A stretch of 43,006 bases of DNA from Coriobacteriia bacterium (lineage in GTDB: Bacteria > Actinomycetota > Coriobacteriia > Anaerosomatales > PHET01): positions 1 to 43,006 of the forward strand of contig JAXMKZ010000006.1 of assembly GCA_034370385.1 (NCBI GenBank), in the 5' to 3' direction. The notes below the pieces were generated by a model. That model had not been told where the DNA came from. It saw only the letters and a list, made by a program, of their open reading frames with translations, and did not search any database. A program made the position numbers and the translations under genes. Positions 2,936 to 43,006 of the stretch are shown here, in pieces. Each line of letters opens with the position of its first letter. Position 1 is the stretch's first letter.

Positions 2936-2957
2936 AGTCCCTCTCAGTTCCAGAGAC

Positions 2958-2982
2958 TGAAGCGCCCCGGGTTCCACGTCGG
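2958..2982 (+). repeat. IS3 terminal inverted repeat (orfB side)
   Basis: Begins TGAAGCGCCCCGGGTT and pairs with the repeat at 4083-4107. It marks the boundary of the element only 22 bp from the start codon of the GT39-like gene. Confidence 0.8.
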
Positions 2983-2987
2983 CTCGA

Positions 2988-3738: not shown

Positions 3739-4034
3739 CGCGGACGGGGTTGGTCGAGCTCCTTGGCGAAAAACACGCTCGCCGCCTTCAGGATCTCGTT
3801 GGAGCGCTTCAGGTCGCGGATCTCTTTGCGAAGCGCGGTGAGTTCCTCGCGCTCGGCTGTCGTCAGCCGATCGGTGCGCGTGCCGTCATTGGCCTCGTCC
3901 TGGCGCACCCACAGCCGCAAGGTGTCGGGGTGGATGCCCAGATTTCGTGCGACCTGAGTGATCGGCCGCTCGGATTCACGTGCGACTCGGACGGAGCGCT
4001 CTCGAAACCCGGGGGAGCACTTCGAACGTCTTGC
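3735..4034 (-). CDS. IS3-family transposase OrfA
   Basis: A small helix-turn-helix protein of about 99 residues. It starts MARRSKCSPGFRERSVRVAR (ATG 4034; an upstream in-frame start at 4064 would add ten residues). The HTH reads ITQVARNLGIHPDTLRLWVR, followed by a leucine-zipper-like coiled coil ending SNEILKAASVFFAKELDQPR, the standard IS3 OrfA signature. In active elements OrfA binds the terminal repeats, and a programmed frameshift makes the OrfAB transposase. Here orfA appears intact but its partner orfB is broken, so no full transposase can be made from this copy. Confidence 0.85.
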   Translation of the reverse strand, partial: ARRSKCSPGFRERSVRVARESERPITQVARNLGIHPDTLRLWVRQDEANDGTRTDRLTTAEREELTALRKEIRDLKRSNEILKAASVFFAKELDQPRPR

Positions 4035-4082
4035 CATGGGTCTGACTCCTTTCTCCAGGACCAAGTACTCCTGGAAACGGAG

Positions 4083-4107
4083 CCTCCGTCAAACAAGGGG
4101 CGCTTCA
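4083..4107 (-). repeat. IS3 terminal inverted repeat (orfA side)
   Basis: On the minus strand it begins TGAAGCGCCCCTTGTT. The first 11 bases are identical to the other end, with scattered mismatches after that. Confidence 0.8.
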
Positions 4108-4341
4108 AAGCGGCAGTTCGGCTACAGAGGAAGGCGGGCCGAAGTGGGTCGCGGGGCCGCGAAGTGGGGATTCCCATGACAACAACAGGGCTGTCACAGA
4201 TTCCACCCCGGCGTACTAGGCTGGGATGCCTCCGAAGTCAGCTTCTTTGGACGTCTACCGCCCTAGCGAGTCGGCTTCTAGTGCGCGATACTGTGCGATG
4301 GCTCAGCAGGTGACTGTAGGCCTCCTCAGGCGTACTGCCCA
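4108..4341. other. Gene-free stretch between IS3 and the epimerase gene
   Basis: No reading frame here resembles a protein I recognise. The part around 4150-4250 (GGGCTGTCACAGATTCC region) has the look of non-coding mobile-element debris, but I cannot assign it. A weak GCCT-N4-AGGC inverted repeat at about 4321-4332 lies just past the epimerase stop and lacks a T-tract, so it is not called as a terminator. Confidence 0.4.
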
Positions 4342-5379
4342 TCAGAAGAACCGCTTCGCTACGATCAGGATGCCCTGTTTCCACGGCACTCGGTGCGAGA
4401 CGCCGCTCTCGCCCGCGAAGTCATCGAGGTGCTCGACGTACCACACGTAGTTGCGTACCAGTGCGTCTTGGTTGGAGTACTTGGGCTGCCACCCAAGAAC
4501 ACGCTTCGCCTTGTCGATCGACACGAACGAGTCCTTCGAAGCAGTCTCATAGACCCACTTGTAGAGCGGGGAGAGCTTGAGTGCTTCGAGCACTCGGAGG
4601 GTCCAGATCATGGGTGCGGCCGGGAACCCCTTGATCTTCTTGCCGTGGCCCGCCCGGTCGAGCACAGCCTGGTAGTCCGCGCGCATCGTCGCGAACTCCT
4701 CGGCACCTATGTTGAACGTGTCGTTGACGACATCTCGCTGAAGCGTGCAGCACAGATAGACCGCGTCACACAGGTCCGCGACGTCGAGCAGCTGGTAGCG
4801 GTTGGTGCCGTCGCCGATCATGGGGAAGCCGTGACCCGTGTACGCCCAGTCGTAGAACAGCGCGAACACGCCCAGGCGCTCGGGGCCGATGAATGACTTG
4901 GGTCTGACTATAGGGACGCACATGCCGCGCTCTCGGTAGCGTAGGCAGACCTCCTCGGCAGCGATCTTGGCTTCACCGTAGGGGCCAACACCAATGAGGG
5001 GGTCGTCTTCGAGTAGCGGGTGATGGTCGGGTATGCCGTACACGGCGGTGGACGAGATCATCACGAAGCGGTCCACGCCCTGGAATTCTGCCGCTTCGAG
5101 AAGGATGCATGTGCCATCGACGTCTGTCGAGCGGATGTCCTCGGGGGAGTAGAGGGGCAGCGCAGCAGCGGTGTGCACGACGATGTCGACGTCGGCCATA
5201 GCGGCGCGAACCGTCTGCTCATCTCGGATATCGCCCACGATGGCTTCGACCTGGTCGACGCAGTCTGCGTAGTCGAACTCGATCAGGTCGAGGGAGCGGA
5301 CCTGATGACCGTGGCCGAGCAAGGAGCGAATGAGGTTGATGCCAAGGAATCCGGAGCCACCGGTAACGAGGTAGCGCAT
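4342..5379 (-). CDS. NAD-dependent epimerase/dehydratase (extended SDR)
   Basis: A 345-residue extended short-chain dehydrogenase. The N-terminal Rossmann motif is TGGSGFLG (residues 6-13), an acidic residue (D31) ends strand 2, the catalytic SST region is at 109-111, and the YxxxK pair is Y134/K138 (PYGEAK). The family includes nucleotide-sugar 4-epimerases, dehydratases and 3-beta-HSD-like enzymes; residues fixing the substrate cannot be judged by eye. ATG 5379 has GAAAGG upstream. It lies 13 bp after the UbiA gene on the same strand, so the two are probably co-transcribed, and a role in modifying a polyprenyl-linked or nucleotide sugar is a reasonable guess. Confidence 0.85.
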   Translation of the reverse strand: MRYLVTGGSGFLGINLIRSLLGHGHQVRSLDLIEFDYADCVDQVEAIVGDIRDEQTVRAAMADVDIVVHTAAALPLYSPEDIRSTDVDGTCILLEAAEFQGVDRFVMISSTAVYGIPDHHPLLEDDPLIGVGPYGEAKIAAEEVCLRYRERGMCVPIVRPKSFIGPERLGVFALFYDWAYTGHGFPMIGDGTNRYQLLDVADLCDAVYLCCTLQRDVVNDTFNIGAEEFATMRADYQAVLDRAGHGKKIKGFPAAPMIWTLRVLEALKLSPLYKWVYETASKDSFVSIDKAKRVLGWQPKYSNQDALVRNYVWYVEHLDDFAGESGVSHRVPWKQGILIVAKRFF

Positions 5380-5392
5380 GCGCTAGGCCTTT

Positions 5393-6265
5393 CTAGACGA
5401 AATAGAGGGTCGCGCCCACTGCGGCCAGCCACAGCAGGATGTTGATGATGAGGGGCCTGTCGGTGAGCAGGATCTCCTCTGGAGACCCTCCCAGATTGCG
5501 CTTGTGCACGAGGTACAGGTAGCGGAACAGGCCGTAGACCACGAATGGGATGCTGAGCATCAGGTAGCCGTGCCGCTGGCCGGTGCTCGAGAAGAAGGTG
5601 TAGAGCGCGTACGTCACTATGGTCGAGGCGGTGATGGCCGACAGCATTGAGTCGATCAGCGGTGCCGAGTAGTGCTCGAGGCAGGGCCGGTGGTCGCAGG
5701 CGACGTCTTCCGCCAGCGTGAGCTCGTGTCGGCGCTTGGCAAGACCCAGGAACAGCGCGAGTAGAGCAGCGCAGATGTAGAGCCAGGGAGACCCGCTCAG
5801 CCCTGTCACGACGGTTCCCGCGAAGGCCCGCAACACGAATCCGGCGGAGATCGCCATGACATCGAGGATCACTTCGTGCTTGAGCCAGAAGGTATACGCC
5901 GCCTGAAGCGTTAGGTAACCGGCGGAGACCAGTCCAAACTGCACTCCAAGTGCGAAGGCGCCTGCGAGAGACGTGACCACCAGCGCCGCCGTGGCGGTGA
6001 CGGCGGTTCGAGGGTTGAGCTGTCCTGCCGCCAGTGGACGGAGACGCTTCGTTTTGTGGGTCCGGTCGCGCTCGAGATCCACCAGGTCGTTCGCGATGTA
6101 GACGGCACTCGACAGCGCGCAGAAGACCACGAAAGCCGCAACTGTGCGCAGGTTGTTCGAAGCGACACCAACTTGGCCCGCAAATATGAGCGGGGCGAAG
6201 ACGATGAGGTTCTTGGTCCACTGGCGTGGACGCATTGTGACAAGCAAGGCGCGCACGGCAGACAC
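5393..6265 (-). CDS. UbiA-family decaprenyl-phosphate phosphoribosyltransferase
   Basis: A 290-residue polytopic membrane enzyme very like mycobacterial Rv3806c. It opens with MRPRQWTKN. The first Mg/PRPP acidic motif is NDLVDLERD (59-67), followed by THKTKRLRPLAAG. Then come LKHEVILDVM-x2-SAGFVLRAFAG, AKRRHEL and, near the end, SPEEILLTDRPL. In mycobacteria this enzyme transfers 5-phosphoribose from PRPP to decaprenyl phosphate, the first step to the arabinose donor DPA. GTG 6265 is preferred because AAGGAGA sits 7 bp upstream. A good promoter lies at 6307-6335. DprE1/DprE2-like partners are not in this window, so whether the product is ribose- or arabinose-linked is open. Confidence 0.85.
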   Translation of the reverse strand: MSAVRALLVTMRPRQWTKNLIVFAPLIFAGQVGVASNNLRTVAAFVVFCALSSAVYIANDLVDLERDRTHKTKRLRPLAAGQLNPRTAVTATAALVVTSLAGAFALGVQFGLVSAGYLTLQAAYTFWLKHEVILDVMAISAGFVLRAFAGTVVTGLSGSPWLYICAALLALFLGLAKRRHELTLAEDVACDHRPCLEHYSAPLIDSMLSAITASTIVTYALYTFFSSTGQRHGYLMLSIPFVVYGLFRYLYLVHKRNLGGSPEEILLTDRPLIINILLWLAAVGATLYFV

Positions 6266-6306
6266 TCGACGGTCTCCTTGCTGTTTGGTGCGGCAGAACG
6301 CGCATC

Positions 6307-6335
6307 ATCATACCTGTGGGCGTGTTGAGTGTCAG
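6307..6335 (-). promoter_or_regulatory. Sigma70-type promoter for the ubiA-epimerase operon
   Basis: On the minus strand CTGACA (6335-6330) and TATGAT (6312-6307) are separated by exactly 17 bp. They match the -35 and -10 consensus at 5/6 positions each. The predicted start near 6300 gives a leader of about 35 nt to GTG 6265 with its AAGGAGA site. It is among the clearest promoters in the window. Confidence 0.6.
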
Positions 6336-6454
6336 CAGGAACCGGCCGTATGCGATTGCCGGGTCGAGGGTCGAGCTGGGTCAGCCTGTTCTCGTTTGCC
6401 CTCTCACGACGTATGCTTCCATGCAGTCGTTCAAGAAGGCGAAAGGGGGCTTGC

Positions 6455-7060
6455 GTGGGTGTCGTCCGGAGACTGCTCAGGCGTATGCGTGCCCTTCTCA
6501 GACGGGAGCCCTATCTGCCAAGCCATCTCGCTGTTGGTGCTAACGCCTACATATCTCGCTACGCCTACATCGACTGGAACCATGCGGCCCACATTGTCAT
6601 CGAAGACCACGCGGTGCTGGCTCCCCGCTGTGCGATTCTTGCGCATGACTCGTCCAGCGCGATGTCGACTGGCCTGACGTGGGTGGCCCCAGTTCTGCTC
6701 AAGAGTTACTGCTACATCGGCTACGGGGCCATCGTTCTGCCCGGAGTCACCGTGGGAGCGCGCGCAGTCGTCGGTGCGGGTTCCGTTGTCACGAGCGATG
6801 TTCCGGATGGGGCCGTCGTCGCCGGAGCGCCCGCTCGCATCGTTGGCGAGGTGAACCGGCTGGACGCAGATCGTCTCGCTCTCGCGAAGCAGCAGGGCGG
6901 CGTGTTTCCGGCGGATCGTTTCATGAGGGCCGAGCATGATCCCGTACGTCTCGTGATGCTGCGCGAGGCGGTCGAAACGGGTGGCGGTTACTTCACGGGC
7001 GGCATCCGCGGGTCGGGCGAGGACCGCAGGTATCCGGTCGAGCTTGTGGAGACGATATGA
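6455..7060 (+). CDS. Left-handed beta-helix (hexapeptide) acetyltransferase
   Basis: A protein of about 201 residues with a basic N-terminus and then hexapeptide-repeat coils: AVGANAYISRYAYIDW, IVIEDHAVLAPRCAILAHD, and after a gap YIGYGAIVLPGVTVGARAVV then GAGSVVTSDVP. It ends with the closing motif GAPARIV, as in Maa/LacA/WcaF O-acetyltransferases. The likely catalytic His is H64 (ILAHD). GTG 6455 is chosen because AAAGGGGG lies just upstream; frames further upstream lack family likeness. It probably acetylates a sugar of the surface glycan using acetyl-CoA. It is divergent from ubiA and 60 bp before leuD. Substrate unknown. Confidence 0.8.
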   Translation: MGVVRRLLRRMRALLRREPYLPSHLAVGANAYISRYAYIDWNHAAHIVIEDHAVLAPRCAILAHDSSSAMSTGLTWVAPVLLKSYCYIGYGAIVLPGVTVGARAVVGAGSVVTSDVPDGAVVAGAPARIVGEVNRLDADRLALAKQQGGVFPADRFMRAEHDPVRLVMLREAVETGGGYFTGGIRGSGEDRRYPVELVETI

Positions 7061-7079
7061 GCGTGTCTCGCGTGCGCAC

Positions 7080-7115
7080 GTGCTAAAATCCCTCGACTAT
7101 TCGAGGCGTAAGGAG
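7080..7115 (+). promoter_or_regulatory. Extended -10 promoter with overlapping palindrome and RBS for leuD
   Basis: TG-C-TAAAAT (extended -10, hexamer at 7083-7088) is followed by a perfect inverted repeat CCTCGA-CTAT-TCGAGG (7091-7106) at the expected transcription start, then the AAGGAG ribosome site (7110-7115) before GTG 7121. No good -35 is visible. The palindrome could be an operator or a short leader hairpin. Confidence 0.45.
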
Positions 7116-7120
7116 CACCC

Positions 7121-7615
7121 GTGAAGTTCACCGGCACCGCCCACAAGTACGGGCGTGACGTCGACACCGACGTCATCATCCCGGCCCGCTATCTCAACAC
7201 GAGCGATCCGACCGAGCTGGCGAAGCACTGCATGGAAGACCTCGATGCCGGATTCGTGGGCAAGGTCGAGTCGGGGGACATCCTTGTCGCCGCCGAGAAC
7301 TTCGGCTGCGGCTCCTCTCGCGAGCACGCGCCCATCTCCATCAAGGCTGCGGGCGTCTCGGTGATCATCGCCAAGAGCTTCGCGCGCATCTTCTACCGCA
7401 ATGCCATCAACACGGGCCTTCCCATCATGGAAGCCCCCGAGGCGGTCGATGGAATCAGCGATGGTGACAGGGTGTCGGTCGACGCTGATGCCGGCGTGAT
7501 TGTGAACGAAACCACGGGGCAGACCTTTGCCGCTCGGCCTTTTCCTCCGTTCGTGAAGGACATCATCGAGCAGGGCGGCCTGATCGAGTCGGTCAAGCAC
7601 AAGCTCGGCTCGTAG
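7121..7615 (+). CDS. leuD: 3-isopropylmalate dehydratase small subunit
   Basis: A 164-residue LeuD of the short archaeal/actinobacterial type. The swivel-domain motifs are DVDTDVIIPARYLNT near the N-terminus, ENFGCGSSREHAP at about 66-78 (substrate-binding loop) and FARIFYRNAINTGLP. With LeuC it isomerises 2- to 3-isopropylmalate, and in citramalate users it also isomerises citramalate. GTG 7121 follows AAGGAG by 5 bp. leuC is not next to it, which is unusual, and must lie elsewhere. The next leucine gene, leuB, is 2.3 kb downstream beyond a ligase-like gene. cimA in the same window makes the dual leucine/isoleucine role likely. Confidence 0.93.
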   Translation: MKFTGTAHKYGRDVDTDVIIPARYLNTSDPTELAKHCMEDLDAGFVGKVESGDILVAAENFGCGSSREHAPISIKAAGVSVIIAKSFARIFYRNAINTGLPIMEAPEAVDGISDGDRVSVDADAGVIVNETTGQTFAARPFPPFVKDIIEQGGLIESVKHKLGS

Positions 7616-7736
7616 GTTTCGTGGGCTAAGGTTGGCCTACAAACTGCACTTGCCCGTTTCGGTAAGCGGTGACGACGGGTGGCCGCGTGCCATCGGTCTG
7701 TTCTGAGTCGGACGTTCTCCGACGATTGGAGTGCAC

Positions 7737-9845
7737 TTGGTCTCGAAGTCCAAGGGCGACAAGCGCCGCAATAGCCATGGTGGGGAACCGAATCGCCAAG
7801 GCACGGCTGTCCCCGGCGGGGGCGGCGTTGCCGCGTCACTCTCGCTGAGCGGCATGAGCGCCCCTCAGCGCATCGCCTGGCTCGCCTTGCTCGCGCTGGT
7901 CTTCGTGGTGCCTTTGGCCATGGGCCGTCTTGCGCTTCCCGGCGCTCAGACGCCGATCACCTTCGATCAGTTCGACCTGATCAAGACCTTCGTCATCCGA
8001 GTCTGTGTGTCGATAGGACTCGCGGCATGGGCGTGGCACATCCTGATCGAGGGCGGCCGACTGCGCCGATCCAAGGTCGACTACCTCATCGTCGCGCTGC
8101 TGGGCTGGGTTGCACTCACCACGATCACCTCAATCCATCCGCAGACCGCGCTCTTTGGCACCTATCGTAGGTACGAAGGGTTTCTCACGTACCTCACGTA
8201 CGCAGGCACGTTCTTCTTGGCGATTCAGCTGCTCGACCGCGGATCGCGCATCCGCACGCTGGCCAAGACGTTCTTCTGGTCCGCCGCGGTCGTCAACGCG
8301 TACGCCGTGCTCCAGTACCTTGGTCTCGACCCGGTGGAGTGGGGCCCTCTGTCGTTCGAGGAGAACCGCGCATTCTCGTTCTTCGGCAACCCTGAGCTGC
8401 TGGCAGGCTACGTGGTGATGTCGCTGACCATCGCGCTATCGCTGGCCTTGGCCGAGGAGCGGACCTCATGGCGCGCGGTGTACTGGTCGGGCTTCGTGGT
8501 GGCTTTGGTGTCGTGGATAGCCACGTTCACGCGCGGCGCATGGATAGCTGGGGCCGTTGCGCTTCTCGTGATGCTCGTCGTCGTCATCATGACTGGCGTG
8601 AAGCTCAGAGGCGTCGACAAGGCATTTCTCGGAGCCGGTGGCGCGGCAGGCGCTGCACTGGTTGCCCTGAGTCTGAGTGCGACGAACGAGGTCATGAACG
8701 TGTGGCTGCGACTGAGTTCCATCCTCGACTTCAGCACCGGCAGCGCAGGCAACCGCTTCAGGATCTGGCAGTCAGCACTCGACGCGGTGGCCGATCGGCC
8801 GATACTCGGCTTCGGAGCCGACACGTTCAAGCTCGTCTTCCCGAAGTACCGACCTATCGACTATCTAGGGGACGGCTACCTCACCGTCGCCGACAACGTC
8901 CACAACTACCCTCTCCAGCTCGCAGTGGCGCTGGGAATCCCGGGCCTGTTGCTGGTGATTGCGGTGTTCGGCTACGCGGCGTACTCATCGGCACCCACCG
9001 TGTTTCTCCGCTCCGAGTCGGCCTCGGCAGACCGGCTGGTTCTGGCGGGGTTCTGGGCCGCGTGTGTGGGCTACCTGGCCCACCTGTTCTTCGCGCTGTC
9101 TATCACCAGCACTACGGTGCTGCTGTGGGTCGCTACGGCCGCGGTACTCGCGCCCTCCGCTCGCAGCATCCAGGTGGGGGAGCTGAGGTGGGGTCGTGCG
9201 GGAGCGGTGTCTGCCGCTGTGCTCGCAGCCGCTGTGGTCGTTGCCAGCTTCGTGCCCCTTCACGCGGACAACCTCTACGTGAAGTCGAAGCTGGCCCAAG
9301 GACAGGATCGCGTCGCGCTCGCCGAGAAGGCCGCCCGCGCACTGCCGTATGAAAGCGCCTACCGGTCCGAGATCTCCATTGCTCGCATGGACGTGTTCGT
9401 CGAGGCCCTTCTGCAAGTGGATGCCGTGAGAGGCACCGCTAGCGAGCAGGCGGCCCGGTCGGCCCTGCAAGGTGTGTTCGTCGACACGGAACGCGCGATG
9501 CTCGATGCCATGGAGCGCTCCCCCTGGGAGTTCGAGAACTACATCTTCTTGGCAAACCTCTACGCCGCAGCGGGCGACTACATCGACCCGACGTACTATG
9601 ACCGCTCGATTGAAGTGGCTCGCACAGGGATCGAGGATAGAGGGTTCACCTACGATGCGAGGCTTCGCTTCCAGCTTGCCCGCGGCTTGCACGCACGGGG
9701 GCAGTCGCAGGAGGCCTTCGAGCACATCAAGCTTGCCGCCCAGCTCGCACCTGACTATCCCGAGGCACAGCTGCTCTTCGCCGAGATAGCGCGTGAACTA
9801 GGGGAACCGGCTGGCACTGGCTCAGTGCCGGACGAGACTAGGTGA
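7737..9845 (+). CDS. O-antigen ligase/PglL-like membrane protein with TPR-like C-terminus
   Basis: About 702 residues: a low-complexity basic/glycine N-terminus of about 40, about a dozen hydrophobic helices (about 45-490), then a soluble domain of about 210 residues. The large extracytoplasmic loop holds the Wzy_C/WaaL superfamily motif RFRIWQSALDAVADRPILGF, followed by G-x-DTF and VHNYPLQLA with the conserved His at about 388. The C-terminal region has TPR-like helices (LARGLHARGQSQEAFEHIKL). TTG 7737 is preferred because GGAG (7728-7731) is 5 bp upstream; GTG 7731 is the alternative. Relatives ligate or polymerise lipid-linked glycans, or transfer them to protein. Which one applies here cannot be decided. 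It sits between leuD and leuB on the same strand. Confidence 0.75.
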   Translation: MVSKSKGDKRRNSHGGEPNRQGTAVPGGGGVAASLSLSGMSAPQRIAWLALLALVFVVPLAMGRLALPGAQTPITFDQFDLIKTFVIRVCVSIGLAAWAWHILIEGGRLRRSKVDYLIVALLGWVALTTITSIHPQTALFGTYRRYEGFLTYLTYAGTFFLAIQLLDRGSRIRTLAKTFFWSAAVVNAYAVLQYLGLDPVEWGPLSFEENRAFSFFGNPELLAGYVVMSLTIALSLALAEERTSWRAVYWSGFVVALVSWIATFTRGAWIAGAVALLVMLVVVIMTGVKLRGVDKAFLGAGGAAGAALVALSLSATNEVMNVWLRLSSILDFSTGSAGNRFRIWQSALDAVADRPILGFGADTFKLVFPKYRPIDYLGDGYLTVADNVHNYPLQLAVALGIPGLLLVIAVFGYAAYSSAPTVFLRSESASADRLVLAGFWAACVGYLAHLFFALSITSTTVLLWVATAAVLAPSARSIQVGELRWGRAGAVSAAVLAAAVVVASFVPLHADNLYVKSKLAQGQDRVALAEKAARALPYESAYRSEISIARMDVFVEALLQVDAVRGTASEQAARSALQGVFVDTERAMLDAMERSPWEFENYIFLANLYAAAGDYIDPTYYDRSIEVARTGIEDRGFTYDARLRFQLARGLHARGQSQEAFEHIKLAAQLAPDYPEAQLLFAEIARELGEPAGTGSVPDETR

Positions 9846-9904
9846 AAACGGTCAGAGAAGGTTAGAGTGTCTCGCAAACCATCGTCGTGCTTCGGGAGGA
9901 CATC

Positions 9905-11023
9905 GTGACCACCAGCTATCGCATCTGTCTGCTGCCCGGAGACGGCATAGGCCCTGAGATCACCGCCGAGGTGGTGAAGGTGCTCGACGCCATCGGCGCC
10001 AAGCATGACGTCGCGTTCACCTACGATGAGGCGCTGCTGGGTGGCGCGGCGATCGACGCCACCGGCTCCGCACTTCCCGAGGAGACGCTGGCTGTGGCCC
10101 ACGCAGCCGACGCCGTGCTCCTCGCCGCGATCGGCGGCCCCAAGTGGGACACCACCGATCCGGCCAAACCCCGTCCTGAGCAGGGTCTTCTCGGCATACG
10201 CAAGGCTCTGGGTCTGTACGCGAACCTGCGGCCGGTCAAGATCTTCGACGCGCTGCGCGAGGCCTCATCGCTTAAGCCTGAGTTCCTCGAGGGTGTCGAC
10301 ATGCTCATCGTGCGCGAGCTGACGGGCGGCCTGTACTTCGGTGACCGCGCTCGCGAGACCGGCGTCGACGGCGCGGCGACGGGCGGGGGAGCCGGCATGC
10401 GCGCCTACGACACGATGATGTACTCCGAGTACGAGATCGAGCGCATAGCGCGCATCGCATTCGACGCAGCCCGCACGCGTGGCAACAAGGTCCACAGCGT
10501 CGACAAGGCCAACGTGCTCGAGTCGAGCCGCCTGTGGCGCGAGGTCGTGCACCGGCTGCACGCTGCAGAGTACTCCGATGTCGAACTCGTAGATCAGCTC
10601 GTGGACAACTCGGCGATGCAGCTCATTCGCACACCTAACCAGTTCGATGTCATGGTCACGGAGAACATGTTCGGCGACATCCTCTCAGACGAGGCATCCA
10701 TGCTCACCGGGTCCCTCGGCATGCTCGCGAGCGCCTCCCTCGGCGACGGTACGGCGCTCTACGAGCCCAGCCATGGCTCGGCGCCGGATATAGCCGGTCA
10801 GGGCGTCGCGAACCCGCTTGCGATGCTGCTGTCCGTCGAGCTGATGCTGCGGTACAGCTTCGACATGCACGCGGCGGCCGACGAGCTCGCGGCAGCGATC
10901 GAGAAGGTGCTTGCGGATGGATGGCGCACCCGGGACATCGCCAGCGCCGATACCTCTGCAGACAGCATTGTCGGCACAGCTGCTATGGGCGACTTGGTGT
11001 TGCGCGCGCTTTCGGCCGCGTAG
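9905..11023 (+). CDS. leuB: 3-isopropylmalate dehydrogenase
   Basis: About 372 residues of the beta-decarboxylating dehydrogenase family. It has [20 protein letters not shown] at the N-terminus, the substrate Arg region [19 protein letters not shown], and the Mg/NAD motifs [19 protein letters not shown] and [14 protein letters not shown]. It oxidises 3-isopropylmalate in leucine synthesis and, with citramalate-derived erythro-3-methylmalate, yields 2-oxobutyrate for isoleucine. GTG 9905 is chosen because GGGAGG lies 5-6 bp upstream; the longer frame from 9887 lacks a ribosome site. Convergent with the pglF gene, 42 bp apart, with no obvious terminator between. Confidence 0.95.
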
Positions 11024-11065
11024 GCTCTCGATTCGGCACCCGGTCCAGCCCAAGCGTTGTTGCCG

Positions 11066-12918
<1,853 letters not shown>

Positions 12919-34695: not shown

Positions 34696-35423
34696 TCGTT
34701 CTACCGGCCATCGACCTGCTGGGCGGGCGCGCCGTACGGCTCGCGCAGGGCGACTACGAACGCGTGACGGTCTACAACGAGGATCCGGTCGCCCAGGCGC
34801 GCGAGTTCGCTGAAGCGGGAGCCGAGTGGATCCACGTCGTGGACCTCGACGGCGCACGCGACGGCGTTCCGGGCAACACCGAGGTCATCGAGCGGATCGT
34901 CGCCGAAGTGGGCATCCCGGTGCAGACGGGCGGCGGTATCCGGACGCTTGAGACCATGGTTCGTCTCGTGGGCGCGGGAGCAAGTCGCCTTGTGCTCGGA
35001 ACGAAGCTTGCGACGGACCCGGCCTTCGTGCGCGAGGCGGTGGCGCGCTTCGGCGACCGCGTCGCGGCCGGCATCGACGCGCGCGACGGGATGGTCGCGG
35101 TGCAGGGCTGGCGAGAAGGCACGGCGACACCGGCCGCCGAGCTCGTCGCTGAACTGCGCGACCTGGGCGTGGGGCACCTCGTCTACACGGACATCTCGCG
35201 CGACGGCATGCAGACCGGCGTGAGCGTCGATGCCTACGAGCAGATCGCCGAGACCGCCGGGTTCCCGGTGATCGCGAGCGGCGGCGTGTCCACGCTCGAC
35301 GACTTCCGCGAACTGGCAGCGCTCGGCCCGGATGTCATCGCCGGCGCCATCACCGGGCGCGCGCTGTACGAAGGCGCGTTCAAGCTCAAGCACGCGATCC
35401 TGGCCGCGCGGGGCCAGTACTGA
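34692..35423 (+). CDS. hisA: ProFAR isomerase
   Basis: A 243-residue (beta-alpha)8 barrel with [20 protein letters not shown] (catalytic Asp), [40 protein letters not shown] (second Asp) and [13 protein letters not shown]. It isomerises ProFAR to PRFAR. In actinobacteria the same barrel can be PriA, which also serves tryptophan synthesis; I cannot distinguish HisA from PriA here. It overlaps hisH by 4 bp and hisF by one base. Confidence 0.93.
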
Positions 35424-36190
35424 TGCTGATGAAACGCGTCATACCCTGCCTCGACGTACATGAGGGGCGCGTGGTCAAGGGCGTCAACTTCGTGAACCTG
35501 CGTGACGCCGGTGACCCGGTGGAGATGGCGGCGATCTACGACAAGGCCGGCGCCGACGAGGTCGTTTTCCTCGACATCACGGCGAGCCACGAGGAGCGCC
35601 CGAGCATGCTCGACGTGGCCACCCGCACCGCCGAGGAGTGTTTCATCCCCTACACCGTCGGTGGCGGCATGCGCTCGTCCGCCGATATCCGCGCGATGCT
35701 CAAGGCGGGCGCGGACAAGATATCGCTGAACTCCGCTGCGGTGAGGGCGCCTGAGCTCATCACCGAGACGAGCCGCATCTACGGCGCTCAGTGCATCGTC
35801 ACCGCGATCGACGCACGGCGTGTTCCCGGCTCCTCGCCGGCGCGCTGGGAGGTCTTCATCAACGGCGGGCGCATCAACACCGAGATGGACGCGGTCGCGT
35901 GGGCGGCGGAGGCTGAGCGGCTCGGCAGCGGCGAGATCCTGCTCACGAGCATGGACTGCGACGGCGTCAAGGATGGCTACGACATCGACCTGACCCGGGC
36001 CGTCACCCGTGCCGTGAACGTGCCGGTCATCGCCAGCGGGGGAGCGGGGGAGCTCGACCACTTCGCCGAGGTTGTCATCGAGGCCGACGCCGATGCGGTG
36101 CTGGCCGCGAGCGTCTTCCACTTCGGGACGTACACCGTCAAGCAGGTCAAGGAGCACATGCGCGCCGCGGGCATAGCGGTGCGGGTGTAG
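35423..36190 (+). CDS. hisF: Imidazole glycerol phosphate synthase, cyclase subunit
   Basis: A 255-residue (beta-alpha)8 barrel with [20 protein letters not shown] (catalytic Asp in CLDV), [24 protein letters not shown], the second Asp in [21 protein letters not shown] and [13 protein letters not shown]. With HisH it makes IGP and AICAR. It is the last his gene seen. hisI/hisE, often next in actinobacteria, do not follow, so those steps must be encoded elsewhere. The 127 bp after it contain no clear terminator. Confidence 0.96.
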
Positions 36191-36317: not shown

Positions 36318-37742
36318 GTGAGGTTTGCGATTTGGACGGTGCGACTCTGCTGCATCTTCGCGGCAGCGTCTGCGATCTGCCTACCCGATTCCGCCATCGC
36401 AGTTGAACCGAGTGAACTTGTCCTCGCTACGACGCCGGAGCTGAGTGACACGGGACTGCTCGACGTTCTGATTCCTGCATTCGAATCGCAGAACCCGCAC
36501 TACTCTGTCCGGACTGTCGTGGTTGGATCAGGCGCTGCTATTGCACTCGCCAACGCGAGAGACGTCGACGCCCTGCTGGTCAACACCACCCAGCAGTCGG
36601 AATCCCTTTACTACAAGGGTGTCGCGGTGTGGCGCCTGCCATACTTCAGCTTCGACTCAGTCTTGCTCGGTCCGGAGTCCAATCCTGCGGGAGTGCTTCG
36701 AAGTGAATCCGCCACGCAGTCGTTTGACAGGATCGCGCGAGCCGGAGGGCTCTTCGTTCCGCGAAGCGACGGCTCGCCATGCGACCTGAAGGAGTTGGAG
36801 ATCTGGAAGGCGTGCGGAAATCCGCAGTTGGGGAAGCCGTGGTATCTGTCGACGGCAACGAGAGACGCCACCGGGGCGATCCTAATGGCAGAATCGCTGC
36901 GAGCCTACACCCTGACGGAACGCCACGTTTGGCTCAGGGCAAGGGCGTCGGGGGCTATGCCTGATTTGGAAGTCGTGAACGAAGGGTCACCTGCGTACGT
37001 GGTGCCGTGCAGTCTGCTTGGGGTATTCGGAGCACGGAACCGAGAGGCCGCATCCGCCTTCGGGATCTGGATGGCCGGTATACCCGCTCGCAACCTCGTG
37101 GCGCGGTTCGGAAGGGCGGACTGGGGCTACGAGGTCTTCAAGGTGAGTCCGGGAAATCGGGATGTCCGGCTCGTGGGTGCTCAGTCAAGGACCGTGTCGT
37201 ATGGACGCACGGTCTCCATCATGGCGGAGGTATTTGAACACGAGGCCATCGGTCGTCCGATCCAAGTGAGTCTTACAACGAGGGACTCATCGCGCACCGT
37301 TGACGCGTACTCAGCGGGGGGCTTCGCGAAGTACGTGTGGGCGCCGACCTCCCGCACCACCGTGCGAGCGCGGACTGCCGACTCGAGTGCGGCCCCAGCC
37401 GGCACATGGTCTGAGCCCGTCGAGGTCCGGGTCGCACACGCCGTCTCAGCGCCGACGGTCTCGGCGTACTCGGTCAAGCGCATGCAACGGATCCGCATCT
37501 CTGGCAAGGTGGTGCCCAAGCATGCTGTGGGCACGAAGGTGCGCGTCGAGGTCAAGAACCCCAAGGGTGTCGTGAAGACCTACACCACGAAGGTGACCTC
37601 GACCGCGTCGGGGTCCTGCACCTGGGTGCTCAACGGCGCACTGGACCTCAAGGGTACCTGGCGTTTCCGCGCGACCCTTGCGGGCGACCCGGCGCACGCA
37701 ACAGGAACCAGCGGTTGGAGCAGGGGAGTGGTGGTGCGGTGA
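36318..37742 (+). CDS. TupA-like solute-binding protein fused to Ig-like C-terminal domains
   Basis: About 474 residues. A signal peptide (1-29, cleavage near AIA/VE) has no lipobox, unlike most Gram-positive binding proteins. Residues 31-280 match tungstate-binding TupA in layout: TGLLDVLIPAFESQNPHYSV, VVGSGAAIALA, DALLVNT, DSVLLGPESNPAG, LKELEIWKACGNPQLGKPWY and AESLRAYTLTERHVW. Ligand-site signatures are altered: TupA-type TTTS is TTPE, and R-x-D-S-G-T is RSDGSPCD. Two Ig-like domains follow (about 283-375 and 376-474). The last is nearly identical to the end of the next gene. GTG 36318 gives a sound signal peptide. It overlaps the next gene (GTGA). Tungstate transport is unlikely; a sensing or surface role is inferred. 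Confidence 0.75.
   Translation: MRFAIWTVRLCCIFAAASAICLPDSAIAVEPSELVLATTPELSDTGLLDVLIPAFESQNPHYSVRTVVVGSGAAIALANARDVDALLVNTTQQSESLYYKGVAVWRLPYFSFDSVLLGPESNPAGVLRSESATQSFDRIARAGGLFVPRSDGSPCDLKELEIWKACGNPQLGKPWYLSTATRDATGAILMAESLRAYTLTERHVWLRARASGAMPDLEVVNEGSPAYVVPCSLLGVFGARNREAASAFGIWMAGIPARNLVARFGRADWGYEVFKVSPGNRDVRLVGAQSRTVSYGRTVSIMAEVFEHEAIGRPIQVSLTTRDSSRTVDAYSAGGFAKYVWAPTSRTTVRARTADSSAAPAGTWSEPVEVRVAHAVSAPTVSAYSVKRMQRIRISGKVVPKHAVGTKVRVEVKNPKGVVKTYTTKVTSTASGSCTWVLNGALDLKGTWRFRATLAGDPAHATGTSGWSRGVVVR
37411..37742 (+). repeat. Duplicated C-terminal module, copy 1
   Basis: About 330 bp collinear without gaps with 40611-40942, exactly 3200 bp away. By eye there are about 20 differences in the last 309 bp (37434-37742). 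It encodes the final ~110 residues, beginning near PVEVRVAHAVSAPTVSAYSV. Confidence 0.9.
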
Positions 37743-40700
37743 GGCGGGCGGCACACCTCATCACGAAGGCGATGGCCGGCCTGGCGTTGATCGCGTTGTG
37801 CTTGGCAGGAGGAGCCTTCGTGCCCGCCTCCGCGGCGGCTATCCCGCAGCTGCTCAACGTTGCGGGCGATTTCAACGCCGACGGCCTGACTGACCTAGCG
37901 CGCTGCGTCGACGCCGGCGGAGGGACCTTCAACATGTGGTTCTTCATGTCGGACGGCACGCAGTTCCAAGTGAAGAAGTCGAGTCTCGTCGCTGGCTGGG
38001 GTTACACGCTCGCGCACTGGCTTGCGGGTGATGTCGACGGCGACGGGCGCGATGAACTGGTGGCCTTCTATAACTACGGTGGTACGAGCTGCGCGATCTG
38101 GGTCTTCGAGGTTGACGGTACCAGTCTCTCAGGCAGTAGGCCTTGGTACGTTCCGAGCGGGTGGGAATGGGCCCGCGTGAAGCCCTTCATTGGCGACATC
38201 GACGGGGATGGTCGCGATGAGATTCTGGCTGCCTACGACCACGGCGGGGACTCTACAGGCATCTGGACTTGGGACATCGATGCGGCCAGCGTCACTCCAA
38301 GGCGCGACTGGTACACCGCCTCGAGCTACAACTGGAGCAACTCGAACTACCTGTGCGGTGACGTCGATGGCAACGGCGTCGATGAGATCATCTCCTACTA
38401 CAACTACTCCTTGGGCAGTACCGGAATCTGGCTGTTCAGCCGCCAACCAGACGGATCGATCATCACGCTTGGCCGGAAGTGGTTCGTCTCCAGCGGTTGG
38501 GACTACAACGCGGTCAAGCCGGTAGCCGGTGATGTCGACGGTGACGGCCGCGATGAGATCGCGCTGCTGTACAACTACAACGGCTGGAATGGCTGGGCTA
38601 TCGGGTTGTGGACGAAGGATGCCGAGACCAACCCTATGACCCCGACTCAGCGCCCTTGGACGCCTCCATCGGGGTCATGGTCCTGGGATCGCGTGTCCAC
38701 GGTCATAGGGGACGCCGACGGAGACGGCAAGGACGAGCTGATGGGCTTCTACGACTACGGTTCCGAGTCGTGGGGTCTGTTCTGCTGGCGGCCGGATCGT
38801 GACAATTGGTGGGCTTTCAAGTTCTGGAACAAAGGCGCTGGCGCATGGTCCGAGGCCGCCATGCCGATGCAGACATCTTCCTTTGCGATTGTCGATAATC
38901 TCGCTCCCACGACGCTCATCTCCGGAGTTGCAGCCGGATGGTCAAAGACCCCGGTGACGTTCACGTTGAGGGCCAGTGACGGCACGGGTGGACGTGGGGT
39001 CAAGGCAGTCAACTACCGCCTTAACGGGGGTGCACAGGTTCTGTATGCGAACCCGGTGACCGTCGCCACGGAAGGCGAGACAACCGTCGAATACTGGGCG
39101 ACGGACGTCGTGGTGCCACCGAACACCGAGACGGCGAAGTCCGCAGTGATCAAGGTCGATATGACGCCACCCGTGACCGCGAGCGATGCAGTCCCGTCGT
39201 ACCAGCGGTCGGCCTCGATTCGACTGACCGCAGCAGATGCAAGATCCGGCGTCGCGACTACCCAGTACCGATTGGATGGGGGGAACTGGGTTACGGGAAA
39301 CGTAGTGAGCACGGATGTGGGCGGATTGCACACCCTGGGCCTACGCTCCACCGACGTGGCGGGCAACGTCGAGAACGAGCGCACGGTCACCTTCACGGTC
39401 GAGATGTTCCCCGCTTCGATTTCCTTCTCGGTCACCTCGGCATCCCCGCGCGCGGGCGATTCCGTTACGGTGTCGGGGCGGCTTACGGCAGCGAACGGAT
39501 CGGCGCTCTCAGGTGTGGCGGTGAAACTGCAGCGCTCTTCGGACGGCTCGGTCTGGACTGATGCCGCCAACGCGACGACCAACGCGTCAGGCGACTTCTC
39601 GATCGCCGTCACGCCGTCGGGGGCCACGCATTACCGTGTCACGAGTGCCTCGACCGCGACGCACGGGTCGGCCACGTCGCCCGGCACTCTCGTGACTCCG
39701 GTGCTGCGCTCGACCACGCTCACCCTTGCGGGTCCGGCGAGCACCCCACGCGCCGTAGCCTCCTTCACGCTGTCGGGGCGGCTCACCGAGTCTCCCTCCG
39801 CCGGGGTCTCGGGGGCGGCGGTGAAGGTCCAGCGCTCGACGGACGGCTCGACGTGGACCGACATCGGCACGGCGACCACGAACGGCGCGGGCGACTTCAC
39901 TTTCTCCGCCTCGCACGCAGCAGGCGCCTTCTACCGCGCGCTGTTCGCCGCCACGGCAACGCATGCCGCATCGAGCGCGAACGCGGTGCGAGTCGGTGTC
40001 TCGGAGCCCGACGACGAGCCTTCCGGGGCCAGCGCGCCCTCCGTATTCCCGCTCTCGGGTTCGATCCGTGACGGCGATGACGTCCGCGACGTCTACCGCA
40101 TCACCACCGACGGTTCCGGACATCCCGTCGACCTCGGACTCACCGGCCCCGCCTCAGCGGACTTCAGGCTCGCGGTCTATTCGGCGTCCGCGTCCTCGCT
40201 GGACGGTACCTCCGCGCTCATGCGCTCGGGCGGCACCGTGTGGCCACGCGGTGTGCGCCTTCCCAACGCCGCAGCCGAGGAGCTGCTGCTCGTCGTCGAG
40301 CGCCACAGCGGCTCCGGCTCCTACGCTGTCGCGCGCACCGATCACCTCTCACCCGAGGTGGAGAGCGACACGGCCTCGCCGATCACGGTTCGCTACGGTT
40401 CGACCACCCGTATCTCCGCATCGGTGATCGAGCGTCCGTGGATGGCGGGATCCATGCCCGTGCAGGTGCGGGTCGTCGCAGCCGGAAAGGCCCGCTACTA
40501 CTCCGCGACCGCACTGGGCGGCGTCATGGCCTTCTCCTTCAAGCCGACCGCGCGCTCGGTGGTGTCGATGCGCTCGGCTTCGAGCCCGAACTCACCGGCC
40601 GGCGCGTGGTCGGCTCCTGTCGAGGTGCGGGTGGCACACGCCGTCTCAGCGCCGACGGTCTCGGCGTACTCGGTCAAGCGCATGCAACGGATCCGCATCT

Positions 40701-40942
40701 CCGGCAAGGTGGTGCCCAAGCATGCTGTGGGCACGAAGGTGCGCGTCGAGGTCAAGAATCCCAAGGGTGTCGTGAAGACTTACACCGCCAAGGTGACCTC
40801 GACCGCGTCGGGGTCCTGCACCTGGGCGCTCAACGGCGCACTCGATCTCAAGGGCACCTGGCGCTTCCGCGCGACCCTTCCAGGTGACTCGGCGCACGAA
40901 CAGGGCACGAGCGGTTGGAGCAGGGGAGTGGTGGTGCGGTGA
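37739..40942 (+). CDS. Large secreted FG-GAP/Ig-like repeat surface protein
   Basis: About 1067 residues. A signal peptide (to about 34, ASAAA) is followed by six FG-GAP/VCBS-like repeats to about 385, each with a Ca-binding loop such as GDVDGDGRDE, GDIDGDGRDE or GDADGDGKDE and an aromatic YNYGG segment. Then come OmpL47-like Ig domains (about 388-560, YRLDGGNWVTG, RSTDVAGNVE), two tandem Ig modules (about 558-755, LQRSSDGSVWTD and VQRSTDGSTWTD), a pre-peptidase-C-like beta domain (about 756-870), and the two Ig modules shared with the upstream protein. GTG 37739 has GGGGAG upstream and overlaps the previous stop. No sortase or S-layer motif is seen; anchoring may use the shared C-terminal module. 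Adhesion or matrix function is inferred. Confidence 0.8.
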   Translation: MRRAAHLITKAMAGLALIALCLAGGAFVPASAAAIPQLLNVAGDFNADGLTDLARCVDAGGGTFNMWFFMSDGTQFQVKKSSLVAGWGYTLAHWLAGDVDGDGRDELVAFYNYGGTSCAIWVFEVDGTSLSGSRPWYVPSGWEWARVKPFIGDIDGDGRDEILAAYDHGGDSTGIWTWDIDAASVTPRRDWYTASSYNWSNSNYLCGDVDGNGVDEIISYYNYSLGSTGIWLFSRQPDGSIITLGRKWFVSSGWDYNAVKPVAGDVDGDGRDEIALLYNYNGWNGWAIGLWTKDAETNPMTPTQRPWTPPSGSWSWDRVSTVIGDADGDGKDELMGFYDYGSESWGLFCWRPDRDNWWAFKFWNKGAGAWSEAAMPMQTSSFAIVDNLAPTTLISGVAAGWSKTPVTFTLRASDGTGGRGVKAVNYRLNGGAQVLYANPVTVATEGETTVEYWATDVVVPPNTETAKSAVIKVDMTPPVTASDAVPSYQRSASIRLTAADARSGVATTQYRLDGGNWVTGNVVSTDVGGLHTLGLRSTDVAGNVENERTVTFTVEMFPASISFSVTSASPRAGDSVTVSGRLTAANGSALSGVAVKLQRSSDGSVWTDAANATTNASGDFSIAVTPSGATHYRVTSASTATHGSATSPGTLVTPVLRSTTLTLAGPASTPRAVASFTLSGRLTESPSAGVSGAAVKVQRSTDGSTWTDIGTATTNGAGDFTFSASHAAGAFYRALFAATATHAASSANAVRVGVSEPDDEPSGASAPSVFPLSGSIRDGDDVRDVYRITTDGSGHPVDLGLTGPASADFRLAVYSASASSLDGTSALMRSGGTVWPRGVRLPNAAAEELLLVVERHSGSGSYAVARTDHLSPEVESDTASPITVRYGSTTRISASVIERPWMAGSMPVQVRVVAAGKARYYSATALGGVMAFSFKPTARSVVSMRSASSPNSPAGAWSAPVEVRVAHAVSAPTVSAYSVKRMQRIRISGKVVPKHAVGTKVRVEVKNPKGVVKTYTAKVTSTASGSCTWALNGALDLKGTWRFRATLPGDSAHEQGTSGWSRGVVVR
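40611..40942 (+). repeat. Duplicated C-terminal module, copy 2
   Basis: Partner of 37411-37742, same length and order. The sequence just upstream in both genes is related only at protein level, so nucleotide identity rises sharply in the final module. Confidence 0.9.
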
Positions 40943-40959
40943 TGCAGGTGGCTCTCGTC

Positions 40960-42840
40960 CTACCAGAATCGCGTGCCGTCGGTGCTGCCGCCTCCGCTTG
41001 AGCCCGTGCTCGTGCGAGGGGCGCTTGCTCTCGGCTTCGGCGCGGCCTTGACTGCGACGGTCTTGGGCGCGCTGAAGCTCTTGGTGAAGTAGGGCGTTGC
41101 GGCGAAGAGCGCGCGCACGTAGTACGAACCGGTGCTCGATGGCTTCCAAGGAACGGTGACGCTACCGTTCTCGTCCGTTGCGCCCGTCTTGATGTCCTTC
41201 CACGTCTCTTTGTCCTTCGACCACTGGAAGGTGATCTTCGCCTTCCCGACGCGGTCCGTGGTCTCGGCGTTGCGCAACACCGCGATGAGCATGGCGGACT
41301 GGCCTGCCGTCAGTTTCTGGTCATCGATGTCGAGGGCCACAGACGTCGGTTGCGGACCGGTTAGGGTGACGGCGATTCTGGTCCCGGTGGCCGCGCGGGA
41401 GCCTGCTGCGGGGTCCTGCTCCAAGACCTTGTATCCTGTCGCCGGCTCAAGCGGTGCGCCGCTGGTGTCGACCGGCGTCAGCTCAAACTTCGCATACTCA
41501 GCAATCTCGGACGCGGACGCCCAGGTCTTTCCGGTCAGCTCCGGCACTTCGATTTCATTCGGCGATTCTGCTTGGGTCGTCGGTGCGCTCTGGGCATCCG
41601 AACTGCGAGAGCCCATCGCGAATACGCCCACAGCGATCAGCCCGAGGGTTGCGATGGCGACGACGACTGCAATGGTCCTTCGCGTTCGGGATGGTGCCGG
41701 CACGTTGTCACGCGCTACCTTCTGCTCGGGTACGGGCATCACGTGGGTCGTGGTCGACTTTCGCACCGGGGCTCGCAGCGCCGACGCGGGACTAGGTGGC
41801 GCCGCCGGCGTCGCTTCTGACGTCGGCGTCTTCTGCGAACGGGCCTCAAGCCCTGGAATCAGCGCAGTAGATTCGGCTGACGGCGCGGAGTCCTTGGGCG
41901 GACGCGCAGCCTCTTTGATCGGGGAGACACTTGGTCCGATTGCGGCCAGTGGACCCGCGACCCCGGCGCTATCCGCCGTGTCGCTATCCGGCACATCGAA
42001 CACGGTGGCCTCGGCCAGGTCGACGATGGTCGCGTCGACGAAGTCAACGGAGTCCGCCGATCTGAGCACCGCGGGCACAGCGTTCCACGCCGCGCGCATC
42101 TCCGACGCGCTCGAGTAGCGGGCGTCGGGATCCTTCTCCAGCGCGCGCATGATCACGGCTGACACTTCGGGCATCAGCTGCGGGTTCACGTCATCGGGCG
42201 CGACCGGCTGCTCGTGGGCGACCCGGTACAGGATTGTGGCCACACTCGTGTCGCCCGAGCCCGAGAAGGGGCTTACTCCCGTCAAGAGCACGTAGGCGAG
42301 CACGCCGATGGAGAACAGGTCGGTTCGGGCGTCGATGGCCGCACCCCGCACCTGCTCCGGAGACATGTAGGCCGGCGTGCCGAGTACCGTTCCCACGGTC
42401 GTGAGCGTCTCGTTAGAGGTGAGATGTGCGACGCCGAAGTCCGCGAGCTTGATGTGATTCTCCGGAGTGACGAAGATGTTGTCGGGCTTCAGGTCTCGGT
42501 GGATTACGCCCCGGCTGTGGGCGTATCCGACGGCGTCGAGCAGCTCGTCGATGATGCGCACACCGAGGTCGGGAGACACGCGCGTGCGCCGGATGAGGTC
42601 GGTGAGAACCTCGCCCTCGACAAGCTCCATGACCATGCCCGGACGTCCGTCGAACACCCCCGCGGCGTGCACTGTGACGATTCCGGAGTGCTTCAGGCGG
42701 GCGACGGCTTTGGCCTCGCGGACGAACCTCTCTTGGTACTCGGACACGACCCGCTCGCTGGCCCCGTGCGGCATGACGGGCTCTTTGATCGCGACCTCGC
42801 GGTCAAGGGCTGGGTCATACGCGCGCCAGACAACCGCCAT
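40960..42840 (-). CDS. Membrane Ser/Thr protein kinase with PASTA and Ig-like ectodomain
   Basis: Numbered from ATG 42840 (626 residues). It has VAIK (K19), HRDLKPDN (114-121), DFG (134-136) and GTPAYMSPEQ (154-163). A Pro/Ala/Ser-rich juxtamembrane linker (about 285-385) is followed by one membrane helix (389-409), a single PASTA domain (430-494) and an Ig-like domain (498-600) ending in a Ser/Gly tail. The glycine-rich loop GELGRGAMAVVW starts before this ATG, so the true protein begins further upstream, perhaps at CTG 42918; no in-frame ATG, GTG or TTG exists there. It phosphorylates cytoplasmic targets in response to outside signals. Convergent with the surface-protein gene, 17 bp apart. 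Confidence 0.88.
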   Translation of the reverse strand: MAVVWRAYDPALDREVAIKEPVMPHGASERVVSEYQERFVREAKAVARLKHSGIVTVHAAGVFDGRPGMVMELVEGEVLTDLIRRTRVSPDLGVRIIDELLDAVGYAHSRGVIHRDLKPDNIFVTPENHIKLADFGVAHLTSNETLTTVGTVLGTPAYMSPEQVRGAAIDARTDLFSIGVLAYVLLTGVSPFSGSGDTSVATILYRVAHEQPVAPDDVNPQLMPEVSAVIMRALEKDPDARYSSASEMRAAWNAVPAVLRSADSVDFVDATIVDLAEATVFDVPDSDTADSAGVAGPLAAIGPSVSPIKEAARPPKDSAPSAESTALIPGLEARSQKTPTSEATPAAPPSPASALRAPVRKSTTTHVMPVPEQKVARDNVPAPSRTRRTIAVVVAIATLGLIAVGVFAMGSRSSDAQSAPTTQAESPNEIEVPELTGKTWASASEIAEYAKFELTPVDTSGAPLEPATGYKVLEQDPAAGSRAATGTRIAVTLTGPQPTSVALDIDDQKLTAGQSAMLIAVLRNAETTDRVGKAKITFQWSKDKETWKDIKTGATDENGSVTVPWKPSSTGSYYVRALFAATPYFTKSFSAPKTVAVKAAPKPRASAPRTSTGSSGGGSTDGTRFW

Positions 42841-42972
42841 GGCGCCACGTCCGAGCTCCCCGATGGCTAACGTCCCCGGTAGTGGTGTACGAGTTCCCGA
42901 GGGTCGCCTGACAAACAGGCGGCCACTGCTCCATCCTTGAGGTCGACCAAGACCCGAACCAAGGAGGAGACA
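42841..42972. other. Region between the kinase and the divergent right-edge gene
   Basis: On the minus strand, kinase-like coding sense (TLAIGELGRGA) continues to about 42870 and the frame stays open to the window edge. The rest should hold the divergent promoters; no clear -35/-10 pair was found. Confidence 0.4.
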
Positions 42973-43006
42973 GTGACCAAGGACAAGATGGACCGCCTGA
43001 CGTGGC
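42973..43006 (+). CDS. Start of an unidentified gene (cut by window edge)
   Basis: GTG 42973 begins VTKDKMDRLTW after a very strong AAGGAGGAG site at 42961-42969. Only eleven complete codons are visible, so the product cannot be named. It is divergent from the kinase gene. Confidence 0.5.
   Translation, partial: MTKDKMDRLTW

Follow-up and report, generated by a model that had tools for sequence, protein, structure and literature searches.

Two genes for secreted proteins and a gene for a membrane Ser/Thr kinase lie side by side in the window, the whole stretch of 43,006 nucleotides that was analysed here. For most bacterial Ser/Thr kinases it is still open what they sense (PMC6069109), and the preliminary description of this DNA suggested that the three products form a module for surface sensing and adhesion. 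The locus thus raises the question of whether the two surface proteins work together with the kinase or only share its neighbourhood.

For the hisF gene (35423..36190, + strand), the last gene of a hisBHAF run, most of 60 relatives have an orthologue with 69-95% identity along its full length. On the same strand, 127 bp 3' of hisF, starts the gene for P1 (36318..37742, + strand; 474 aa with a putative GTG start), a secreted binding protein that derives from TupA and ends in two Ig-like domains. The next gene, P2 (37739..40942, + strand; 1067 aa, also with a putative GTG start), encodes a secreted protein with an FG-GAP propeller, Ig-like domains, a PPC-like domain and a C-terminal domain (CTD). 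The two reading frames share a GTGA overlap, with the GTG of P2 at 37739 and the end of P1 at 37742. The gene for a Hanks-type Ser/Thr kinase with a single transmembrane (TM) helix and an ectodomain of one PASTA and one Ig-like domain (40960..42840, - strand) is convergent with P2, and 17 bp separate the two stops; the N-terminus of the kinase is possibly incomplete at the contig end. The open reading frames and the signal peptides read from the sequence (VRFAIWTVRLCCIFAAASAICLPDSAIA in P1, VRRAAHLITKAMAGLALIALCLAGGAFVPASAAA in P2) bear out the preliminary view of two translationally overlapping genes for secreted proteins, and the labels TupA-like, FG-GAP and PASTA were all upheld in the profile search.

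The P1 protein has a two-lobe periplasmic binding fold related to TupA, found by both profile and structure matches. It matches the PBP_like_2 profile (E 5.8e-12), and its nearest solved structure is the TupA structure 3lr1 (E 6.5e-29), with E 8.8e-21 for another TupA structure, 5my5; its score against the NCBIfam TupA equivalog is 74.8 bits, below the cut-off of 400. The oxyanion site of TupA comprises T9, T10, T11, S12, H59, R118, T124 and D170 (PMC5517513). Residue numbering was checked before the comparison. In the lobe pair of P1 (36414..37184, + strand) five of these eight residues are changed (T11P, S12E, H59N, T124C and D170E), and T9, T10 and R118 are retained. All eight are kept, except for S/T at position 9, in 22 of 22 other TupA sequences. 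No TupB or TupC was found beside P1 among the ORFs of the window, and both other TupA genes of this genome adjoin TupB/TupC. Thus P1 resembles TupA (3lr1, 5my5; PMC5517513) in its fold and in the three retained residues, but differs from it in the other site residues, S12E among them, in the absence of a TupB/TupC neighbour, in the two added C-terminal Ig-like domains, and in being a secreted protein that is by sequence no lipoprotein. The mostly changed site and the missing TupB/TupC suggest that P1 has left an ABC-transport role, and on these grounds it was rejected as a functional tungstate-binding protein.

The P2 protein contains an FG-GAP/VCBS-type propeller (37832..38848, + strand) with six GDxDGDGxDE calcium-type loops, as read in the translation. 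The match to FG-GAP_3 covers five stretches and is above the profile cut-off (E 2.2e-14, 54.2 bits); the nearest solved chain is 9oee_A ('Secreted esterase', E 2e-23). P2 shares the repeated loops with propeller surface proteins of this kind; it differs in lacking an enzyme domain by profile and in carrying extra modules. These are an OmpL47-type domain (E 2.2e-27 in the profile search), the tandem domains Ig1 (39410-39706) and Ig2 (39707-40003; together 39410..40003, + strand), a PPC-like domain (40007..40372, + strand) and the CTD (40625..40939, + strand; HMM A1 E 3.7e-33). The PPC-like domain searched alone gave no Pfam match, but an S8 protease from this genome has PPC repeats that match it (E 1.4e-22). 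In the fold model of the C-terminal half the PPC stretch is poorly predicted (pLDDT <35), and the PDB structures that the model matches are of generic Ig/macroglobulin type.

The preliminary description also noted that P1 and P2 end in the same pair of Ig-like domains, and indeed their C-terminal ~186 residues match at 71% in the alignment (E 4e-75). This match includes the first Ig-like domain of P1, of the YGxTVxI type (37185..37424, + strand), which aligns to its P2 counterpart, and the P1 CTD (37425..37739, + strand; HMM A1 E 3.2e-32). Near-identity is confined to the last ~105-117 codons; over 105 codons it amounts to 94% at the aa level and 93% at the nt level. Counted back from the stops without gaps, identity drops abruptly to about 0.5 before the CTD, and therefore the domain preceding it is a more distant paralogue in the two proteins. 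Judged from the sequence, the sharp edge of the CTD near-identity looks as it might after gene conversion; the dN/dS of the two CTDs is 0.15. HMM A1 found the CTD at 29 places of this genome, mostly ending at a stop codon, and no family for it exists in Pfam or NCBIfam. It is an Ig-like C-terminal domain of general use, carried by about 25 proteins of this bacterium. Since it occurs genome-wide, the CTD is no marker of a dedicated system, and the near-identical tail was dropped as a mark of a private system of P1, P2 and the kinase.

The kinase matches Pkinase with E 2.5e-43 and has the catalytic motifs (G-loop, VAIK, HRDLKPDN, DFG and SPE). Its ectodomain consists of a PASTA domain (PF03793; 41362..41553, - strand; residues 430-493, E 4.2e-8) and an Ig-like domain (41044..41352, - strand), modelled by AlphaFold2 as all-beta with pLDDT of about 85-97. 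No ATG, GTG or TTG was found in the kinase frame upstream of the G-loop, in the 165 bp to the contig end (43006); the start assigned earlier, 42918, is a CTG. The Hanks-type kinase domain, TM helix and extracellular PASTA are all shared with PknB/PrkC/Stk1. However, those kinases have three or more PASTA domains and the kinase here a single one; it reaches 291 bits where the equivalog cut-off is 450, has a GS-rich C-terminus, and is an accessory paralogue outside the division cluster, the core pair being on contig C42. PASTA-Ig kinases are already known as a type: PrkC has a C-terminal Ig-fold after its PASTA repeats (PMC3601408). Sister kinases in relatives bear other ectodomains, namely SBP_bac_3, F5/8 type C, and Big_7 with a SnoaL-like domain.

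The resemblance of the kinase ectodomain to the Ig modules of P2, proposed in the preliminary description, proved to be true homology (BLASTP E 6e-5; hhalign against the set of P2 Ig domains, probability 95%, E 3.9e-8), and fold prediction did not separate the two, both being Ig-like. When the kinase Ig was searched against the 2.69-Mb genome, P2 Ig2 ranked first apart from the query itself (E 1.9e-4); a paralogous kinase came next through its own Ig (0.0016), and P2 Ig1 third (0.018). With P2 Ig2 as the query in turn, four relatives from other parts of the genome came out closer to it than the kinase, which places the link at the level of the domain family and leaves no private pair. The paralogous kinase, on contig C59, carries the same domain (34% identity; 50% over the kinase part). 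The Ig thus belongs to the kinase family, and its copying from P2 is rejected. The kinase and P2 Ig domains are probably related as members of a single domain family that circulates in this genome.

We give somewhat better than even credence to a lineage-specific cassette for two surface proteins retained at the wall, next to an accessory PASTA-Ig sensor kinase. P1 and P2 would form a two-gene cell-surface cassette between hisF and the kinase and would be exported by their predicted Sec signal peptides. The CTD would hold them in the envelope or matrix, as on the other secreted proteins that carry it. P1 probably descends from tungstate-binding TupA, has presumably left ABC transport, and its present role is most likely to bind a different ligand or to act as a scaffold only. 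The FG-GAP architecture of P2 suggests a calcium-dependent propeller adhesin or a glycan binder. The kinase, apparently of a subfamily with swappable ectodomains, most likely senses wall fragments or envelope state via PASTA and Ig, by analogy with PknB/PrkC. Functional linkage of P1 and P2 with the kinase is plausible, and direct contact of either protein with it is possible and not required by the data.

Several neighbourhoods argue for some functional link. The accessory paralogous kinase at C59 is convergent with a gene for a secreted propeller protein that ends in the same CTD, and at C42 a gene with PPC and CTD adjoins one of the two core-cluster kinases. In six genomes a CTD gene lies within 3 kb of 5 of 15 kinase loci (0.91 expected); without the present locus the count is 4 of 14 against 0.86 (P 0.006, post hoc). 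Among the relatives read, G026 is the only one in which a kinase gene converges on hisF; this kinase, from the same subfamily, has a fused solute-binding ectodomain, which hints that a binding protein and a kinase can belong together. The C59 locus also looked type VII-like through an FHA-FtsK/SpoIIIE ATPase; its two small proteins have no Pfam match, and thus no WXG100 claim is made for it.

The neighbourhoods at C59 and in G026 and the excess of CTD genes near kinases, together with the Ig homology, the rank of P2 Ig2 in the genome search and the tight coupling of P1 and P2 only 17 bp from the kinase, also speak for a dedicated sensing module. In such a module P1 would capture a ligand, P2 would report an attachment state, or both, and Ig docking on the kinase ectodomain would alter cytoplasmic phosphorylation. 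Actinobacteria provide a precedent in GlnH-GlnX-PknG, where a periplasmic binding protein controls a Ser/Thr kinase (PMC6069109, PMC9769921). In that pathway, however, a soluble kinase is linked to the membrane through GlnX and a single conserved operon holds the genes, whereas the kinase described here sits in the membrane itself, is encoded on the opposite strand, and belongs to a set that is not conserved. The homology at domain-family level and the modest, post hoc enrichment also weigh against this arrangement, which we regard as doubtful.

The distribution in relatives counts against it as well. Among 60 relatives, the P1 search gave nothing beyond TupA-domain or weak tail matches, the P2 search only a generic Ig/OmpL47-type region and one partial propeller match, and the kinase search, outside this genome, only kinase domain matches. 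In 69 genomes of the order, the P1 tail was found only in this genome, plus one 33% tail match. Two peptide-pattern scans of 84,980 species genomes, a method that detects close relatives only, found no relatives of P1 or P2. None of the other genomes searched in the order contains the trio; a lack of co-occurrence in relatives was one of the outcomes that the preliminary description named as refuting its proposal, and it largely applies. Of the proposed module there remain the correctly named parts, the real Ig homology and, as weaker signs, the C59 neighbourhood and the excess of CTD genes near kinases; a conserved trio and a private tail do not.

In the relatives whose DNA after hisF was read, mostly hisI/hisE and trp genes come next, with none of P1, P2 or the kinase. 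The absence of P1 and P2 would fit a chance neighbourhood, in which they entered the his locus recently as surface-protein genes that may be mobile or decaying, the kinase is unrelated, and the shared domains are common Ig modules. The apparent recent conversion of the CTD, the abundance of CTD and Ig domains in the genome and the kinase lacking a canonical start upstream of its G-loop agree with it. On the other hand, the reading frames and signal peptides of P1 and P2 are intact, the low dN/dS points to purifying selection on the CTD, and the similar neighbourhood at C59 and the enrichment of CTD genes near kinases also speak against a chance neighbourhood, which we consider unlikely. The most far-reaching proposal, that P1 is a wall-tethered extracellular sensor feeding the kinase together with P2 via homologous Ig modules and that the CTD is an undescribed surface-retention label of exported proteins of the order, appears improbable as a whole.

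With the lineage-specific cassette as the preferred reading, the juxtaposition of a binding protein of transporter type, its site rebuilt, and a kinase that carries a related Ig domain offers a concrete and testable candidate for an extracellular input. The CTD, which ends about 25 secreted proteins in one genome, merits a family entry.

The genome of this bacterium (G000) comprises 2.69 Mb, and the window is one entire contig of it (G000:C6). ORF calling and reading of the DNA place hisBHAF on the forward strand, followed on the same strand by the genes of two secreted proteins, P1 (36318-37742) and P2 (37739-40942), which overlap by GTGA. Both proteins have Sec-type signal peptides at their N-termini; these and the overlap suggest that translation starts at GTG codons at 36318 and 37739. 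A Hanks-type Ser/Thr kinase gene is encoded on the reverse strand, with its stop at 40960, 17 bp from the P2 stop.

The N-terminal part of P1 is a TupA-type binding protein (PBP_like_2, E 5.8e-12; solved structure 3lr1, E 6.5e-29). In TupA of Desulfovibrio alaskensis, residues T9-T11, S12, H59, R118, T124 and D170 line the tungstate site (PMC5517513), and this numbering, mapped onto 5my5, agrees residue for residue. At T9, T10, T11, S12, H59, R118, T124 and D170, P1 has T, T, P, E, N, R, C and E, whereas the set is kept in all 22 other sequences, including the two other TupA proteins of the genome, where position 9 is either S or T. Both other tupA genes are followed by tupB and tupC; neither gene follows P1. 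P1 shares the two-lobe binding fold with TupA and is derived from it, yet given the changed site and the missing partner genes it should not be filed as TupA. One other TupA of the genome carries an N-terminal Ig-like domain (L070, G000:C41, 8275-9501, in a tupABC cluster), and a similar gene occurs in a tupBC cluster of the related genome G026 (L104, G026:C35, 7186-8481), so the lineage makes a habit of fusing Ig modules with TupA.

P2 has a propeller of FG-GAP repeats, found above the cut-off in a profile search, and matches 9oee_A with E 2e-23. The propeller is followed by OmpL47-type repeats, two Ig-like domains (Ig1 and Ig2), a PPC-like domain, one more Ig-like domain and a C-terminal Ig-like domain (CTD). 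The PPC-like domain has no Pfam recognition and was identified by its match to the PPC repeats of an S8 protease (E 1.4e-22).

The CTD ends both P1 (37425-37739) and P2 (40625-40939). The two proteins are 71% identical over 186 residues by BLASTP and 92% identical over 349 bp by BLASTN. Counted codon-wise from the stop, the final 105 codons have 93% DNA identity with dS 0.20 and dN 0.031, and ungapped identity falls to about 0.5 past about 110 codons. This is most simply explained by a partial duplication, or by a gene conversion event, that took in the last domain alone, under purifying selection. The domain is generic and not specific to this pair: profile A1, made from the tails of ten proteins, finds it at 29 places in the genome at E <= 0.01, including the two in the window and loci L126-L152. 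Its carriers are secreted and include propeller proteins of the TolB-like, BNR and NHL types, OmpL47-type proteins and an S8 protease bearing PPC repeats; in most of the loci that were read, its final V-x-V-R/K strand runs up to the stop codon. No model for it exists in Pfam or NCBIfam. A cut-off of E <= 1e-6 gives 16-25 matches in each of the related genomes G001, G002 and G026, 7 in G035 and none in G003. Among 396 genomes evenly drawn from the phylum it was found in 9, a lower bound because only a few candidates in each genome were scored in this broad search. The C-terminal place on secreted proteins suggests a role in wall or matrix retention.

The window kinase has all core motifs and a single copy each of a transmembrane helix, a PASTA domain and an Ig-like domain; PrkC has already been reported to carry an Ig fold behind its PASTA part (PMC3601408). 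Between the contig end and the G-loop there is no ATG, GTG or TTG, and the frame runs on to that end (42840-43006); hence the N-terminus may be cut or mis-assembled, the gene damaged, or the start unusual. The Ig-like domain is modelled confidently (pLDDT about 85-97) and matches Ig domains of macroglobulin, intimin and InvE, among others. The preliminary description noted a resemblance to the Ig modules of P2, and the homology is true: hhalign of the kinase Ig pair against the P2 Ig set gives E 3.9e-8, and P2 Ig2 matches the kinase domain better than anything else in the genome but the domain itself (E 1.9e-4), followed by the Ig domain of a paralogous kinase on contig C59. The likeness is however at the level of the domain family, P2 Ig2 having nearer relatives elsewhere in the genome.

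Conserved co-occurrence of the three genes was not seen: no orthologues of P1, P2 or the kinase ectodomain were found in 60 relatives, two species-wide scans yielded no relatives of P1 and P2, and the P1 tail was absent from 69 genomes of the order save for a 33% match in G001. Outside G026, in the relatives whose hisF surroundings were read, mostly hisI/hisE and trp genes come after hisF. The C59 kinase (50% identity over 420 aa) is divergent from an FHA-FtsK/SpoIIIE ATPase gene and convergent with a gene for an NHL propeller and CTD protein, after which comes a second propeller and CTD gene. Two FHA proteins are also encoded near this Ig-ectodomain kinase, and its locus (L069, G000:C59:209000-225473, 2654-12325) has the look of a type VII system, but no Pfam family matches the small proteins there. 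The nearest kinases in G026, G035 and G013 lie in clusters with several kinases and FHA proteins, accompanied in G026 and G013 by a PP2C-like protein, as judged by eye. Ectodomains are swapped within this one kinase subfamily: they are of F5/8 type C (NADase_transloc) in L093 (G026:C23, 8790-10463), Big_7 with SnoaL-like in L096 (G035:C109, 1742-3559), and a fused SBP_bac_3 solute-binding domain (E 1.2e-36) in L094 (G026:C23, 8666-10444). The last gene, at the edge of a multi-kinase, FHA and PP2C-like cluster, faces hisF in convergent orientation, just as the hisF-P1-P2 run and the window kinase converge.

Strong CTD matches were counted near kinase loci of six genomes. Within 3 kb they occur at 5 of 15 loci against 0.91 expected (P 9e-4), or 4/14 against 0.86 with the index locus excluded (P 0.006); within 5 kb, at 6 of 15 against 1.17, or 5/14 (P 0.002). 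The association is suggestive only, since the test was devised after the C59 locus had been seen and ignores clustering of CTD genes, and the core kinase loci share ancestry.

These genomic hints and a precedent in kind, the GlnH-GlnX-PknG pathway (PMC6069109), make a direct link of P1 and P2 to the kinase conceivable, if rather unlikely. The two proteins, we suggest, are synthesised together, exported and retained in the envelope by the CTD. The P2 propeller would probably bind calcium and a glycan or protein surface, P1 would probably bind another ligand than TupA does or act as a scaffold, and the kinase would read wall fragments or the state of the envelope.
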